DNA of 64,000 bases, taken from Pseudocolwellia sp. AS88 (GTDB lineage Bacteria; Pseudomonadota; Gammaproteobacteria; Enterobacterales; Alteromonadaceae). The translations under genes and the position numbers were made by a program. Where the stretch lies: positions 1 through 64,000 of the forward strand of contig NZ_JAUPEC010000010.1 in the NCBI RefSeq assembly GCF_030551755.1, given 5' to 3'. Position 1 is the first letter of the stretch; each line of letters starts with the position of its first letter. The notes beneath the pieces were generated by a model. That model saw nothing but the letters and a program-made list of their open reading frames with translations. It had not been told where the DNA came from and did not search any database. Positions 29,595 through 35,276 of this stretch are shown here, piece after piece.

Positions 29595-29891
29595 TTATTG
29601 AGCAACTGTAAGTTTTTCTTCAAAAACATGTTGGTCACTAAAGTTATCAAATTTAACTTTTGTAATTCCAAGCTTTTCACACAACGCCATAAAAGTTAAA
29701 TAATCTTCTTCTTTTAAGTCCTTCTGATCTCGAGTCATAACTCCATCAAGATAAGCACTATCACTATTAATACATAAATTAGCTGTTGCACTGTAAGGTT
29801 CTCCGTATGTATCGACTCTAATGGCACGAATACTTTTTATTTCGAAGATCCAGTTATTAAGTTCAATATAACGTGTAATGTCAGGTTGCAT
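29595..29891 (-). CDS. hypothetical protein, 98 residues
   Basis: I do not recognise it. The product is acidic, with no signal peptide or membrane segment. It is predicted to have a beta-rich first half (WIFEIKSIRAIRV) and a helical second half with a KEEDYLTFMALCEKLG segment. It has the codon use of its neighbours and a ribosome-binding region (about AACCCTTG on the minus strand) that is unremarkable. It is isolated between a YcxB-like gene and the EF-hand genes. Confidence 0.5.
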   Translation of the reverse strand: MQPDITRYIELNNWIFEIKSIRAIRVDTYGEPYSATANLCINSDSAYLDGVMTRDQKDLKEEDYLTFMALCEKLGITKVKFDNFSDQHVFEEKLTVAQ

Positions 29892-30006
29892 TTCAAGGGT
29901 TCTCTATGGTTTGTGTTAGTGCTTTGTATACTTTGAAGCTAATAAGCGTATGAATAATTTGCTATTAAAACTAAGCTTAGTAACTCCAAACATAAGAATA
30001 AAAAGA

Positions 30007-30034
30007 GCCGGCTAAAAATAACAATATAGCCGGC
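30007..30034 (-). terminator. terminator downstream of the EF-hand genes
   Basis: Perfect GC-rich arms GCCGGCTA and TAGCCGGC around a 12-nt loop, followed on the minus strand by TCTTTTTATTC. It lies 150 bp after the last EF-hand gene. A second, weaker inverted repeat (GTTATTCAT/ATGAATAAC, 30129-30156) lies between the two. Confidence 0.75.
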
Positions 30035-30180: not shown

Positions 30181-30516
30181 CTAAAAAGCATTAAACTCGT
30201 CTAAGCTAAGGTTCGAATCTTCATTTAAATCTAGATTCTTAAATACCGTTTTCAAAGCTTCATTATCACTAGTCGATAATTCTGCTTCACTTAAAACACC
30301 ATTTTTATCAATATCAAACTTAGTTAAAAGTTTAGCAAAAGTCTTTTGCTGTACCGTAGAGCCTTCCACTCCAACTATCTCCTGAACATCTGCAAATACA
30401 GTTGTTTCTTGCAAATCAGTTTCAAAAGAATAAATTTCATTAGCATTGACGATAAAAGTGGCGATGGTTGCAAGAGCAACGGCTAATGTAATTTTAACTA
30501 AGCTTATGTTGTTCAT
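30181..30516 (-). CDS. secreted EF-hand protein, paralogue 1
   Basis: Protein of 111 residues with a signal peptide (about 1-25, cleavage near VNA-NE) and two EF-hand loops at the C-terminus: DIDKNGVLSEAE and DLNEDSNLSLDE. The second loop has serine where glycine is usual. This is the calmodulin-like pair seen in bacterial periplasmic calcium sensors or buffers. It is the third of three tandem paralogues on this strand. A good ribosome-binding site (AGGA) precedes the ATG. The 124-bp gap from paralogue 2 may hold its own promoter. Function is not known; calcium binding is inferred from the loops. Confidence 0.75.
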   Translation of the reverse strand: MNNISLVKITLAVALATIATFIVNANEIYSFETDLQETTVFADVQEIVGVEGSTVQQKTFAKLLTKFDIDKNGVLSEAELSTSDNEALKTVFKNLDLNEDSNLSLDEFNAF

Positions 30517-30640: not shown

Positions 30641-30994
30641 TTAAAAAGTACTAAATTCACTTGCACTGATCAGTGAATCTTCATTCACATCAAGGTTTTT
30701 AAAAGCCATTTTTAGAGCTTCGTTATCACTTGTAGAGAGTTCGGCTTCGCTTAAAGCACCATTCTGATCTGCATCAAATTCAGATAAAAGTTGTGAAAAA
30801 TCTTTCTGTTGTAATGAGATAGCTGATTCTACTTGTTCAGTTACCGGTAATTCTTTTACTGCATCTATTTGGGTTTCAGTAGTAGTTATTGCTTCATTTA
30901 CTTTAGGAGTAATATCATTCGCATTTACAACAAAAGTCGCGATAGTTGCGAATGCTACACCAAGAGTCATCTTCACTAAGTTTGAGTTATTCAT
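30641..30994 (-). CDS. secreted EF-hand protein, paralogue 2
   Basis: Protein of 117 residues with a signal peptide ending near VNA-ND, an acidic/threonine-rich linker (about 28-63) and two EF-hands: DADQNGALSEAE and DVNEDSLISASE. The first 20 and last 50 residues closely match its neighbours, while the linker differs, as in tandem duplicates under different constraint. An AAGGAAT ribosome-binding site lies 7 bp before the ATG. It follows paralogue 3 by 49 bp and is probably cotranscribed with it from the sigma-54 promoter at 31533-31548. Confidence 0.76.
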   Translation of the reverse strand: MNNSNLVKMTLGVAFATIATFVVNANDITPKVNEAITTTETQIDAVKELPVTEQVESAISLQQKDFSQLLSEFDADQNGALSEAELSTSDNEALKMAFKNLDVNEDSLISASEFSTF

Positions 30995-31043: not shown

Positions 31044-31367
31044 CTATTTAGCTGCATCAAAAGCGCTGAATTCTTCAGCACTAATACTTGCATCTTTATT
31101 TGAATCAAGACTCTTAAACGCTGACTTAAGGGCGATATTATCGCTTGTAGATAACTCTGCCTCACTTAAAAAGCCATTTCTATCGATATCAAACACGGTT
31201 AAAAGTTGGCTAAAATCAAATTGCTTTAAAGAGAAAGAACTCGTTACTTCACCAGTATCCTCAACAGCAGTTATTGTTGGGGTAACTTCATTAGCATTTA
31301 CAGCGAAACTAGTTACTGCAGCGAGTAAAGTGCCTAAAGTCATTTTAGTTAAACTTACGTTTTTCAT
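31044..31367 (-). CDS. secreted EF-hand protein, paralogue 3 (promoter-proximal)
   Basis: Protein of 107 residues: a signal peptide to about VNA-NE, a short linker, and two EF-hands, DIDRNGFLSEAE and DSNKDASISAEE. It is the first gene after a near-consensus sigma-54 promoter, with a leader of about 155 nt that includes a CTTCAC-CT-GTGAAG hairpin (31471-31484). The operon with glrK-qseG-glrR diverges from the same intergenic region. The product should be exported and bind calcium; its partner is unknown. Confidence 0.78.
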   Translation of the reverse strand: MKNVSLTKMTLGTLLAAVTSFAVNANEVTPTITAVEDTGEVTSSFSLKQFDFSQLLTVFDIDRNGFLSEAELSTSDNIALKSAFKSLDSNKDASISAEEFSAFDAAK

Positions 31368-31532
31368 AATGAGCCCTTAATTATCCAAATAGCTAAAAGT
31401 GGTTACAGTGTTATTGCCAAATAAAAATCCATCTTTAAAACTCATAAATCCTTTTTAATCTATAAAGCTACTTCACCTGTGAAGATAAAATCTAACATCC
31501 ATATCAAATAACACTATAACTGCTCATGACTT

Positions 31533-31548
31533 TGCACAAGACGTGCCA
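31533..31548 (-). promoter_or_regulatory. sigma-54 (-24/-12) promoter facing the EF-hand genes
   Basis: On the minus strand the 16-mer TGGCACGTCTTGTGCA matches the consensus TGGCACG-N4-TTGCA at all fixed positions but one, with the exact GG-N10-GC spacing. The predicted transcription start is near 31522, about 155 bp before the first EF-hand ATG. A sigma-54 activator gene (glrR) lies in the adjacent divergent operon. Confidence 0.85.
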
Positions 31549-31599
31549 CATCATAACCAACTGTTTTAAAAGGGTTTTAATTTGTATGCACTGTCAATC

Positions 31600-31617
31600 T
31601 GTCTCCATAAAGAGACA
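31600..31617. promoter_or_regulatory. GlrR-type operator, site 1
   Basis: Perfect palindrome TGTCTC-N6-GAGACA, which contains the TGTC-N10-GACA pattern known for GlrR sites at enterobacterial glmY. Its centre is about 87 bp upstream of the predicted sigma-54 start, the usual distance for an enhancer-binding protein. Confidence 0.7.
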
Positions 31618-31720
31618 CTTAAATAATCCAACATTATTTAAATAGTACAAGCATCAACCAATACACAATTAAAGCAATATAAAACAACAGCTTAATAATT
31701 AAAAAAGAAAGGCTACCTGG

Positions 31721-31738
31721 TGTATCCAAATGGAGACA
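31721..31738. promoter_or_regulatory. GlrR-type operator, site 2
   Basis: TGTATC-N6-GAGACA differs from site 1 in one base of the left arm and some of the centre. It is centred about 208 bp upstream of the predicted EF-hand start and 72 bp ahead of the glrK start codon, so it could serve both directions. Confidence 0.6.
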
Positions 31739-31809: not shown

Positions 31810-33300
31810 GTGAGCAATTCATCTTTATCAAACCTTTACAAAATCTATCAAATAACAGGCTTAGACACTCTTTCCATCAAAAAGCTAACACTATTAGGTT
31901 TTTCACTTGTCGCTTTACCACTTGTTATGGCATTGCTATACAGTGCTGCCCAAATAAATAAATTATCGAATCAAAGTGAAGATGCTATTTTTAATGCTGC
32001 TGAATTTACTGAAACAACCAAACAGCTGAGTGAATTGTTAGTAAAGATGGAAAGGTACGCCAGCCAATCAATAGTGCTTAAAAATAAAGAGCTAACGAAT
32101 AATTACTTTATTGAAGAAGAAAGACTTCTTAACATAACCAATAAAAACTTAATTAATCATACGGATAAAAAACTAAAAGAAATTAGTAACCAGTTTATTA
32201 CTGAAATAAGCATTATTAATCAGTTACTCTCACCTAATAACGAGCAAACCCTGTATTTAACTCAGTTACAAGATCAGTTTAAGTTGTTAGCTAAAACTTA
32301 TAATCGCATCAACCAACGTAGCAACGAATTAATATACAACCAAGCAAAAGAAGTAAGAACATCAGCAAGCTTAGTACGACAAACCATGTTAAATAGTTTG
32401 TTAATTATTCCTATAACTATTTTAATTGCGGTGTTCTTTATCATCATCATTACTAAACCGTTAAAGAAATTGATTGCCGAAATACAACAACTGGAACAAG
32501 GAAATTTTGAACATCAAATAGCCTTAAAAAGTTCACCTGAAATAAACGAAATTGTAGATGCACTTGAGGTAATGCGTACAAGATTACATGCTTTAGAATT
32601 ACAAAAATCTAGTTTTATCAGACATATATCTCATGAATTAAAAACACCTCTTGCCGCGATAAGAGAAGGAACAGAGCTCTTGTATGACAACAGTGTAGGC
32701 TCTTTGAATCCAGATCAACAAGAAATTAGCGATATCATTAGAACCAGCGTTACACGTTTACAACGCTTAATTGAAGACCTTTTGGACTTTAATATCGTTT
32801 TAGACTCAACCAGCTTACAAGATTCTGAAAAACTCTATGTAACCCAGTTAATTGGCAGTGTAATTAACGAAAGAAAATTAGATATAAAACGTAAAGATAT
32901 TGATTTACACACCACTTTCGAAAATATCGCTATATACAGTAATGCTAAACAGCTCGCGGTAATTTTAGATAATCTATTATCAAATGCGATAAAATACTCC
33001 CCCTTTAACAGTCGTATTTCTATATCCACTTCACTTTCGGGTGAACAGCTGAAAATAACCATTACAGATCAAGGTATGGGGCTAAACGAAGAAGTAATTA
33101 ATAAAGTTTTCGATGCTTTTTATCAAGGGCCAGCTCCACAAGGAAACGAGATAAAAGGTAGCGGTTTAGGCTTAACCATAGTTAAAGAATTATTAATGCG
33201 TATTAATGGAAACATTAGCGTTACCAGTAAAATACAAGAACCAAGTGGTACTACATTTACCTTAATATTACCTCGAGCATTTTTAGTAGGAACACCATAA
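31810..33300 (+). CDS. glrK: sensor histidine kinase GlrK (QseE)
   Basis: Inner-membrane kinase of 496 residues: membrane segments at about 26-46 and 196-215, a periplasmic helical sensor region between them, HAMP (about 216-268), a HisKA domain with phospho-accepting H275 in SHELKTPLAA, and HATPase with N (DNLLSNAIKYSP), G1 (DQGMGL) and G2 (GSGLGL) boxes. Gene order with qseG and glrR matches the E. coli glrK-qseG-glrR operon. The frame starts with GTG. The strongest Shine-Dalgarno (AAAAAGGAGG, 31766-31775) lies about 34 nt too far upstream, so the exact start is uncertain. The C-terminus overlaps the next ATG by one base. Confidence 0.9.
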   Translation: MSNSSLSNLYKIYQITGLDTLSIKKLTLLGFSLVALPLVMALLYSAAQINKLSNQSEDAIFNAAEFTETTKQLSELLVKMERYASQSIVLKNKELTNNYFIEEERLLNITNKNLINHTDKKLKEISNQFITEISIINQLLSPNNEQTLYLTQLQDQFKLLAKTYNRINQRSNELIYNQAKEVRTSASLVRQTMLNSLLIIPITILIAVFFIIIITKPLKKLIAEIQQLEQGNFEHQIALKSSPEINEIVDALEVMRTRLHALELQKSSFIRHISHELKTPLAAIREGTELLYDNSVGSLNPDQQEISDIIRTSVTRLQRLIEDLLDFNIVLDSTSLQDSEKLYVTQLIGSVINERKLDIKRKDIDLHTTFENIAIYSNAKQLAVILDNLLSNAIKYSPFNSRISISTSLSGEQLKITITDQGMGLNEEVINKVFDAFYQGPAPQGNEIKGSGLGLTIVKELLMRINGNISVTSKIQEPSGTTFTLILPRAFLVGTP

Positions 33301-33899
33301 TGAATCTCATTTCAAAAACAAAATCAGTTGTAAAAACACTTGCCGCTGTGGGCTTAATGATAAGTCTAAGTGCTTGTGAAATAACACCTATCGAAGAAAC
33401 CACTCACATCCCTACTTACGGCGATTACTATCTTTGGCTCAAAAGCTTAGATAATGAAGAGTTATTACAAGAAATAGAACAACAAAACATAAATCAACAT
33501 TCAAAAAGCCCAGATGCAGACATTTATTTAATGCTATTGCATACCTTACCTAAATCACCAATATATAACCCTTACACGGCAAAATCGTTATTAAATGAAT
33601 TGCAACTTCAATATGTTGAGTCACGTTATAACCCAACAAATTTAGCGTTAATCACCTTATTAAGAGATTTACTCAACGAGCAACTGTTGATTATTCAAAA
33701 ATACGATATTACCACGGCAGAACTTACAAGCGCTAAGAAGTCGCTTACTACTCAAAAAAGCACGGCTTCTCAGCAAGAGAAAGAACTCAAGCTTAAAAAT
33801 GAACAACTTAAAGAATTAGAGCAACAAGTAGATCTTCTCAAAGAGCAAATAAACCAACTACATCGTATTGAAAAAAATATTAGCGAGCATGGGAATTAG
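33300..33899 (+). CDS. qseG: QseG-like outer-membrane lipoprotein
   Basis: Lipoprotein of 199 residues: a signal peptide with the lipobox LSAC (acylated C26) and a long C-terminal coiled coil (about 135-195) rich in Glu, Gln and Lys. In enterobacteria QseG (YfhG) lies between glrK and glrR and activates GlrK kinase from the outer membrane. Sequence similarity is weak by eye, so the name rests mainly on position, size and lipobox. It starts on the last base of the glrK stop and ends 3 bp before glrR. Confidence 0.75.
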   Translation: MNLISKTKSVVKTLAAVGLMISLSACEITPIEETTHIPTYGDYYLWLKSLDNEELLQEIEQQNINQHSKSPDADIYLMLLHTLPKSPIYNPYTAKSLLNELQLQYVESRYNPTNLALITLLRDLLNEQLLIIQKYDITTAELTSAKKSLTTQKSTASQQEKELKLKNEQLKELEQQVDLLKEQINQLHRIEKNISEHGN

Positions 33900-33902
33900 T
33901 TT

Positions 33903-35276
33903 ATGAATGAATCAAACACAACTGCGCCTGTTAATGGAAAAATACTGATTGTAGATGATGATCCTCATTTACTGCGTTTACTCGGTATTCGCCTTTCAGC
34001 AGCTAACTATAAAGTAGAGTCGGCAGAAAACGCAAAAGTGGCTTTAGGTAAATTAAAAACCTTTCACCCTCATTTGGTGATCAGTGATTTACGTATGGAA
34101 GGTATGGATGGCATGGCGCTATTTGAACAAGTGCGCCAGCAACACCCAAGTATGCCTGTTATTATTTTAACGGCACATGGGACCATTCCAGACGCCATAA
34201 GCGCAACTAAACAAGGTGTATTTAGCTTTTTAACTAAACCCTTTGAAAGTAAAGAATTGCTTGATACTGTTTCTCAAGCGATACGACTACAACCTATCGA
34301 TATAGATAATCCAGAACAAGATGAGTTATGGCGTAAAAACATTATTAGCCGTAGCACAATAATGACCTCTTTATTAAATCAAACACGACAAGTAGCAAAA
34401 AGCGACTTTAGTATTTTGATCCACAGCCAAAGTGGGACAGGTAAAGAGTTGTTAGCAAATGCGATTCATCAAGCAAGCCATAGACGCTCTGAAAAATTTA
34501 CCGCAATTAACTGTGCAGCGATACCAGAACAATTATTAGAATCTGAACTATTTGGCCATACAAAAGGTGCATTTACCGGCGCAGAAAGAAATCATGTAGG
34601 TTTGTTTGAAGCGACAAATGGTGGGACTTTGTTTCTAGATGAGATTGGCGATATGCCAATGAACTTCCAAGTTAAACTATTGCGTGCTCTGCAAGAAAGA
34701 GAAGTTCGCCCAGTTGGCAGTACCCAATCAATAAAAGTTGATGTACGTATTATTGCGGCTACTCATAAAAACTTACAGCAAGCGATTATTGACCAAACAT
34801 TTAGAGAAGATTTGTACTACCGACTCAATGTTGTGGAACTTGAATTACCACCTTTATCAGAAAGACGTGAAGATATTCCTCTCCTCATTCAACACTTCTT
34901 AAATAACGTACTTGAGAAGATTGATAACGACATTATTGGTTTTTCACAAGAAGCCATGGAGTTACTTATTAGTGCACCTTGGCCAGGTAATATAAGACAA
35001 TTACAAAACATTGTAGAACAAAGTGTCGCCCTATCTACAGAGCCATTAATTAGTGAAACACTCGTTAAAAATGCATTACGTGATAAAACCACTATTCTGC
35101 CTTCATTTCAGCAAGCTAAAGACAAATTTGAACGAGATTATTTAGCTAAGCTTCTGCAAATCACCGCAGGTAATGTTTCTAAGGCCGCTAAAATAGCGCA
35201 AAGAAATAGAACCGAGTTTTACAAACTACTTAATCGACATCACTTATCAGCAGAAGCATTTAGGTCTGAAGACTAA
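33903..35276 (+). CDS. glrR: sigma-54-dependent response regulator GlrR (QseF)
   Basis: Enhancer-binding protein of 457 residues. The receiver domain (about 12-128) has phospho-acceptor D62. The AAA+ domain has Walker A SQSGTGKE (175-182) and the sigma-54-contacting GAFTGA loop (222-227), plus an intact Walker B in LFLDEIGD. The C-terminal Fis-type helix-turn-helix contains NVSKAAKIAQRNRTEFYKLL. It drives sigma-54 promoters from distant sites once phosphorylated by GlrK. Two candidate sites and a sigma-54 promoter lie upstream of its own operon, facing the EF-hand genes. Confidence 0.93.
   Translation: MNESNTTAPVNGKILIVDDDPHLLRLLGIRLSAANYKVESAENAKVALGKLKTFHPHLVISDLRMEGMDGMALFEQVRQQHPSMPVIILTAHGTIPDAISATKQGVFSFLTKPFESKELLDTVSQAIRLQPIDIDNPEQDELWRKNIISRSTIMTSLLNQTRQVAKSDFSILIHSQSGTGKELLANAIHQASHRRSEKFTAINCAAIPEQLLESELFGHTKGAFTGAERNHVGLFEATNGGTLFLDEIGDMPMNFQVKLLRALQEREVRPVGSTQSIKVDVRIIAATHKNLQQAIIDQTFREDLYYRLNVVELELPPLSERREDIPLLIQHFLNNVLEKIDNDIIGFSQEAMELLISAPWPGNIRQLQNIVEQSVALSTEPLISETLVKNALRDKTTILPSFQQAKDKFERDYLAKLLQITAGNVSKAAKIAQRNRTEFYKLLNRHHLSAEAFRSED

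Follow-up and report, generated by a model that had tools for sequence, protein, structure and literature searches.

The intergenic region that separates glrK from a divergent array of genes encoding small EF-hand proteins is very probably a GlrR-dependent sigma-54 promoter of this array, as judged from the sequence elements it contains and their preservation in related bacteria. The region is located in a window of 64,000 nucleotides from Pseudocolwellia sp. AS88, whose genome encodes sigma-54 and IHF-alpha. On the plus strand, the sensor kinase gene glrK (qseE; 31810-33300, exact start codon unsure), whose product contains HAMP, HisKA and HATPase_c domains, is followed by the gene of a qseG-like lipoprotein (33300-33899) and by glrR (qseF; 33903-35276), which codes for a response regulator and sigma-54 activator. 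GlrK shares 28% identity with its E. coli counterpart over 435 columns and, among the best 80 of 396 loci, its closest named relative is found in Pseudocolwellia agarivorans (84% for GlrK). The assignment of the middle gene as qseG, contained in the first-pass annotation, holds with respect to position and lipobox, on which the name has to rest since the protein does not detectably resemble QseG of E. coli (E 0.93) and belongs to no Pfam family. The minus strand carries efh1 (31044-31367), encoding a protein of 107 residues with two EF-hand loops and a hydrophobic N-terminus that is a probable export signal, and its tandem paralogues efh2 (30641-30994, 117 residues) and efh3 (30181-30516, 111 residues). 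In all three proteins, Pfam EF-hand_1 scores above its cut-off (2.4e-08, 2.4e-07 and 1.1e-06, for efh1 in conjunction with an alignment). A hairpin read directly from the sequence, GCCGGCTA...TAGCCGGC followed by TCTTTTT (30000-30034, minus strand), is a candidate terminator of the array, which is absent from the output of a terminator scan because its 12-nt loop exceeds the limits of the scan. Beyond the EF-hand genes, the minus-strand gene at 29595-29891 encodes a conserved protein of about 100 residues with the motif WIFEVKxVRA, for which neither Pfam nor NCBIfam contains a match.

The control region is defined by three elements that had been noticed in the first-pass annotation and that are borne out by our reading of the sequence. 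A sigma-54 (-24/-12) element, TGGCACGTCTTGTGCA (31533-31548, minus strand), deviates from TGGCACG-N4-TTGCW at one position, with GG and GC being exact, and is the sole match to this consensus in the window with fewer than two mismatches, placing the predicted start of transcription near 31523. Upstream of it, the proximal GlrR-type site TGTCTCCATAAAGAGACA (31600-31617) is a palindrome with perfect TGTCTC/GAGACA arms, and a near copy, the distal site TGTATCCAAATGGAGACA (31721-31738), follows at a distance of 121 bp. The centres of both sites, for which positions of about -87 and -208 had been claimed, are found at about -86 and -207 relative to this start. Taken alone, the single motifs are at chance level within the window, where TGTC-N10-GACA with up to one mismatch is found 10 times against 15.9 expected and the sigma-54 consensus with up to two mismatches 7 times against 7.0 expected. 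Across the 4.3-Mb genome of the organism, the motif TGTMTC-N6-GAKACA is matched exactly at two places, both in this control region, although it was written after the sites had been seen and was drawn from them. The observation is nevertheless real, and its support comes from the conservation of the combined module rather than from the single motifs.

This conservation is illustrated in a sample of named glrK loci comprising the best 80 of 396, from which L036, L105 and L108 were dropped for containing fewer than 600 bases upstream of glrK. A profile search upstream of glrK identified a divergent EF-hand gene in 66 of the 77 remaining loci; since the loci are related and the 25 EF-hand proteins behind the profile come from loci overlapping with the tested genomes, such raw counts are not independent. 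Two TGT-N12-ACA sites at a distance of 110-142 bp are present in 64 of 78 loci (the 77 and the window), compared to 0.015 expected after dinucleotide shuffling of the 420 bp in question, and 74 contain at least one site compared to 3.1 expected, while a control stretch at 1080-1500 bp upstream contains no pair in any of the 78. In 57 of the 64 pair-bearing loci, the sites are 119-123 bp apart. A chance occurrence of the motifs in AT-rich DNA, as might be suspected from their counts in the window, is thus practically negligible in light of the number of conserved pairs and their phased spacing described below, and it is only by this conservation that it is rejected. The pair was not detected in the 14 loci L034, L047, L055, L060, L063, L067, L081, L083, L093, L094, L096, L103, L109 and L110; in four of these (L060, L093, L109 and L110), no TGT-N12-ACA site whatever was found by glrK. 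The first-pass annotation had considered the absence of the sites from relatives that keep the gene pair as evidence against its proposal, and most of these relatives retain them: among 67 EF-hand loci (the 66 and the window), 58 contain the pair, 8 more contain one site and L060 retains the EF-hand gene with none. Conversely, the pair is kept in 6 of the 11 loci among the 77 that lack an EF-hand gene. Jointly, the motifs constitute a module that is conserved in the interval separating glrK from a divergent gene encoding a secreted EF-hand protein.

A pronounced feature of this module concerns the distance between the proximal site and the sigma-54 element. In a scan covering 0-110 bp downstream of the proximal site without positional preference, the best sigma-54 element scored at least 12 in all 64 pair-bearing loci, compared to 2.25% of shuffles. 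Its distance to the proximal site is 51-53 bp in 28 loci, 62-65 bp in 24, 73-75 bp in 11 and 94 bp in one, with no gap falling between these classes, which correspond to whole helical turns. In the locus with the 94-bp gap (L101), the best element has no exact -12 GC, and in L057 it starts with AGG. In a quickly built phylogeny of the 64 GlrK sequences, which contains several long branches, the gap classes change at least 15 times and the phasing is therefore not the consequence of one inherited spacing. The same tendency is found for the site-to-site spacing, which falls into classes of 110-111, 119-123, 131-133 and 141-142 bp with one case at 127 bp, and where few cases are informative, as only 7 of 64 loci lie outside the main class (Rayleigh p 0.06). 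The direction of the promoter also bears on whether the sites might control glrK itself, in an autoregulatory or repressing loop to which the EF-hand side would be incidental. The distal site is close to glrK and, according to PMC8745638, glmY and qseEGF are combined in a single operon of Proteus mirabilis whose promoter contains QseF sites. Yet none of the 64 loci contains a sigma-54 element scoring at least 12 toward glrK, compared to 64 of 64 toward the divergent gene, and it is the divergent promoter that the phasing concerns. Control of glrK is thus rejected for want of a sigma-54 element in this direction and we regard it as very improbable.

Besides the elements discussed so far, the region contains two IHF-like sites, both missed in the first-pass annotation. 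Site 1, TAAGCTGTTGTTT (31682-31694, minus strand), located 26 nt from the distal GlrR-type site, matches YAAN4TTGATW with one mismatch, and site 2, AAACAGTTGGTTA (31554-31566, minus strand), located 5 bp upstream of the -24 element, matches WATCAAN4TTR with two. With up to one mismatch, the former pattern recurs in 32 of 64 loci at a distance of 25-27 nt to the distal site, and an IHF match in either orientation is found between the two sites in 47 of 64, compared to 22.5 expected from shuffles. In 56 of 64 loci, WATCAAN4TTR precedes the -24 element by 5-7 bp, and with at most one mismatch it is present in 52 of 64 compared to 9% of shuffles. IHF-like sites, as a feature of GlrR/QseF-type promoters, are found at fixed positions in the relatives, with the window's own site 2 being weak.

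The identity of the activator is suggested by a comparison with the enterobacterial glmY promoter. As described in PMC6075780, E. coli QseF/GlrR acts on the sigma-54 promoter of glmY from three TGTN12ACA sites with help from IHF. In E. coli K-12, these are TGTCTGTAAATCACGACA, TGTCGCTTTCTGGCGACA and TGTCTCTTTTTAGCGACA, with an exact YAAN4TTGATW located between TGTCGCTTTCTGGCGACA and TGTCTCTTTTTAGCGACA and a one-mismatch WATCAAN4TTR between TGTCTCTTTTTAGCGACA and the sigma-54 element TGGCACAGTTACTGCA. The window contains the features of such a promoter in form of two TGTN12ACA sites, a downstream -24/-12 element and a GlrR orthologue with the same recognition helix. As in the glmY promoters of E. 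coli and Proteus mirabilis, a sigma-54 promoter is found upstream of glrK, the palindromes share the TGTN12ACA core, with arms of the form TGTC(T/G)C...GCGACA in glmY, and IHF-like sites are placed between two GlrR sites and again between the proximal site and the sigma-54 element in equal order and orientations. In contrast to glmY, the promoter described here is directed away from glrK, leads to a gene for a secreted EF-hand protein instead of the sRNA GlmY, and contains two sites 121 bp apart, whereas three sites with spacings of 33 and 63 bp are present in E. coli. The E. coli rpoE promoter, likewise dependent on GlrR/QseF (Klein et al. 2016, as cited in PMC6075780), appears to combine a sigma-54 promoter with related upstream sites, although its target is the gene of a sigma factor. 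GlrR of the window shares 57% identity with its E. coli counterpart and, among NCBIfam models, is matched best by NF011695 (GlrR) with 626 bits, under the cut-off of 763. The recognition helix RNRTEFYKLL is identical in both proteins and is found in 76 of the 80 loci, with RNRTDFYKLL in one and the contigs of the other three stopping before the helix. L109 and L110 encode a GlrR with the same helix, yet contain no site by glrK.

In principle, the sites could be real and be bound by a sigma-54 activator other than GlrR, since many such activators are encoded, with dozens of matches to other families in each searched genome. We consider this unlikely, as the sites resemble those of E. coli GlrR in core, arms and IHF layout, adjoin glrK-glrR and are accompanied by a shared recognition helix. 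The order-wide scan described below also argues against another activator, as it matched four of five family-f1 genomes with a GlrK orthologue, compared to none of the remaining 19 genomes of this family, of which 15 have no close GlrK and four fell outside the GlrK search. Conservation, phasing, IHF-like sites and the GlrR helix thus together support the original proposal that GlrR-type operators and a sigma-54 promoter would drive the divergent genes of secreted EF-hand proteins.

The predicted products of these genes share properties across the sampled loci. In the first EF-hand proteins of relatives, two EF loops are found in 64 of 66 and a hydrophobic N-terminus in 65 of 66. In 22 of 24 genomes, matches of the EF-hand profile below E 1e-20 are confined to the glr locus, with the best match elsewhere at 1.6e-13. 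The number of copies varies, with three in the window and five in tandem in Pseudocolwellia agarivorans (L031, G046:C34:252277-254179). In L054, the first EF-hand frame is short and without loops, possibly a broken copy, and a second frame of the EF family is located beyond. Membership in the XopAW family NF041410 was not found, as scores of 26-29 bits, confined to the EF-hand stretch, compare with a curated cut-off of 120 bits. A model of the EF-hand protein (mean pLDDT 69.2) is poor outside the EF pair, and its structural matches are ordinary EF-hand proteins, with none at E <=0.001. Its sequence relatives in the PDB include EhCaBP, the calmodulins and lanmodulin (6mi5), with the best being of the EhCaBP type, all of which share paired EF-hand loops. 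Lanmodulin, a periplasmic protein, is also small and bacterial; it is characterized by a proline at loop position 2, which is missing in the EF-hand proteins of the window. The loop starts of calmodulin are 36 residues apart, whereas a shorter distance of 28 is found in the first protein of the window. We regard both export and Ca2+ binding in the periplasm as probable for the EF-hand proteins, which may act in the envelope/calcium response proposed in the first-pass annotation.

The coding potential is also relevant for whether the true product of the promoter could be a small RNA in the leader, a counterpart of GlmY to which the EF-hand genes would be passengers. The leader in the window has a length of about 156 nt, Rfam identifies GlmY in this place in 4 of the 12 sources scanned (L111, L152, L153 and L155), and in the Bowmanella loci L093 and L094 no clear open reading frame was found downstream of the promoter. 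However, the window contains no Rfam family at gathering score, the leader estimates in 57 loci span -40 to 182 nt, with three values below zero that result from using the frame's first ATG, and the EF loops are preserved as described. In Bowmanella, a clear common fold is missing from the stretch beyond the promoter, whose alignment is poor. We therefore reject an RNA product, which appears very unlikely in view of the missing Rfam match and the unconserved leader length, in agreement with the statement of the first-pass annotation that the target is not an sRNA.

With the EF-hand array as preferred target in the window, other genes take its place in some relatives. A strict composite of one GlrR-type site followed by a sigma-54 element 46-76 bp on, searched in 32 genomes, gave 20 matches in 19 genomes, compared to none for a backward-pattern control in the same 32. 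Nineteen of the matches are located at glrK, and most of the 13 genomes without a match carry the module at this locus by looser criteria. In the genome of the window itself, no second target was found by the strict composite, which also misses known loci and may have overlooked weaker targets. The remaining match forms part of a second complete module (L159, genome G007, 1370-1607) in which the sites TGTCTCAATATAGAGACA and TGTTGCTTCTTGGTAACA are separated by 131 bp and an IHF-like element precedes TGGCATAGCATGTGCT at a distance of 6 bp. This module, found in one genome, precedes the gene of a secreted LPMO/GbpA-like protein (LPMO_10/GbpA_2), for which 29 of 30 genomes searched contain no match. 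A two-site composite matched 6 of 295 genomes of the order. Four of these are family-f1 genomes bearing glrK, and one (L116, G229) is a metagenome-assembled genome assigned to another family, where the module is found beside a GlrK-like frame and EF-hand genes, possibly as a result of misbinning or transfer. The sixth match, inside an unrelated frame, is probably due to chance. In Agarivorans, similar genomes and Alginatibacterium (L106, L148, L149 and L103), the module faces a WIFEVK protein of about 110 residues, whose model is of moderate quality (mean pLDDT 78.6) with weak GNAT-like matches (best E 0.01). In many loci of Colwelliaceae, the gene of this protein is located at a further distance downstream, beyond the EF-hand gene. 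K/E/A-rich peptides of about 70 residues with a signal-like N-terminus, which are probably exported, occupy the place of the EF-hand gene in Lacimicrobium and an Alteromonas (L095, L104 and L101). Since the module often faces other genes in relatives without an EF-hand gene, its output looks exchangeable. We lean, by a modest degree, toward the view that the GlrR cassette next to glrK, with the order GlrR site, IHF, GlrR site, IHF and sigma-54 element, is old and persistent with its output swapped between lineages, and that the EF-hand proteins would constitute a periplasmic output of the QseG-GlrK sensor, possibly one providing Ca2+-dependent feedback. The outputs would then be GlmY in Enterobacterales, EF-hand proteins in Colwelliaceae (in up to five tandem copies), the WIFEVK protein, the K/E-rich peptides and the LPMO/GbpA-like protein.

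In the mechanism that we propose for the window, phosphorylated GlrR, originating from the neighbouring glrK-qseG-glrR operon, would bind the two palindromes about 121 bp apart. IHF would bend the DNA at two places, between both GlrR sites and immediately in front of the promoter, folding the control region of about 200 bp and thereby allowing the GlrR assembly to contact the sigma-54 polymerase waiting at 31533-31548. The genes efh1, efh2 and efh3 would be transcribed together, perhaps up to the hairpin at 30000-30034, and their products, once exported, would probably act as Ca2+-binding proteins of the periplasm.

Collectively, the promoter described here is of a known kind, with a new target and a variant layout. 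In PMC6075780, PMC8745638 and PMC8895600, GlrK/GlrR (QseE/QseF) is presented by way of its enterobacterial targets glmY and rpoE and as a virulence system responsive to adrenaline, and our search of the open-access literature found no paper joining QseF with EF-hand or Colwellia, or GlrR with Colwellia, nor, among the papers listed, any joining GlrR with EF-hand. It appears that in marine Colwellia-type bacteria, GlrK/GlrR switches on genes of small exported calcium-binding proteins, instead of a small RNA as in E. coli, by means of the same layout. If true, this would assign the system a wider role in the homeostasis of the periplasm or envelope, the output being exchangeable, and it would offer harmless, free-living marine hosts for finding what GlrK and QseG sense. 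The repeated changes of spacing by whole helical turns would in this respect provide a natural experiment on the limits of enhancer geometry in sigma-54 activation.
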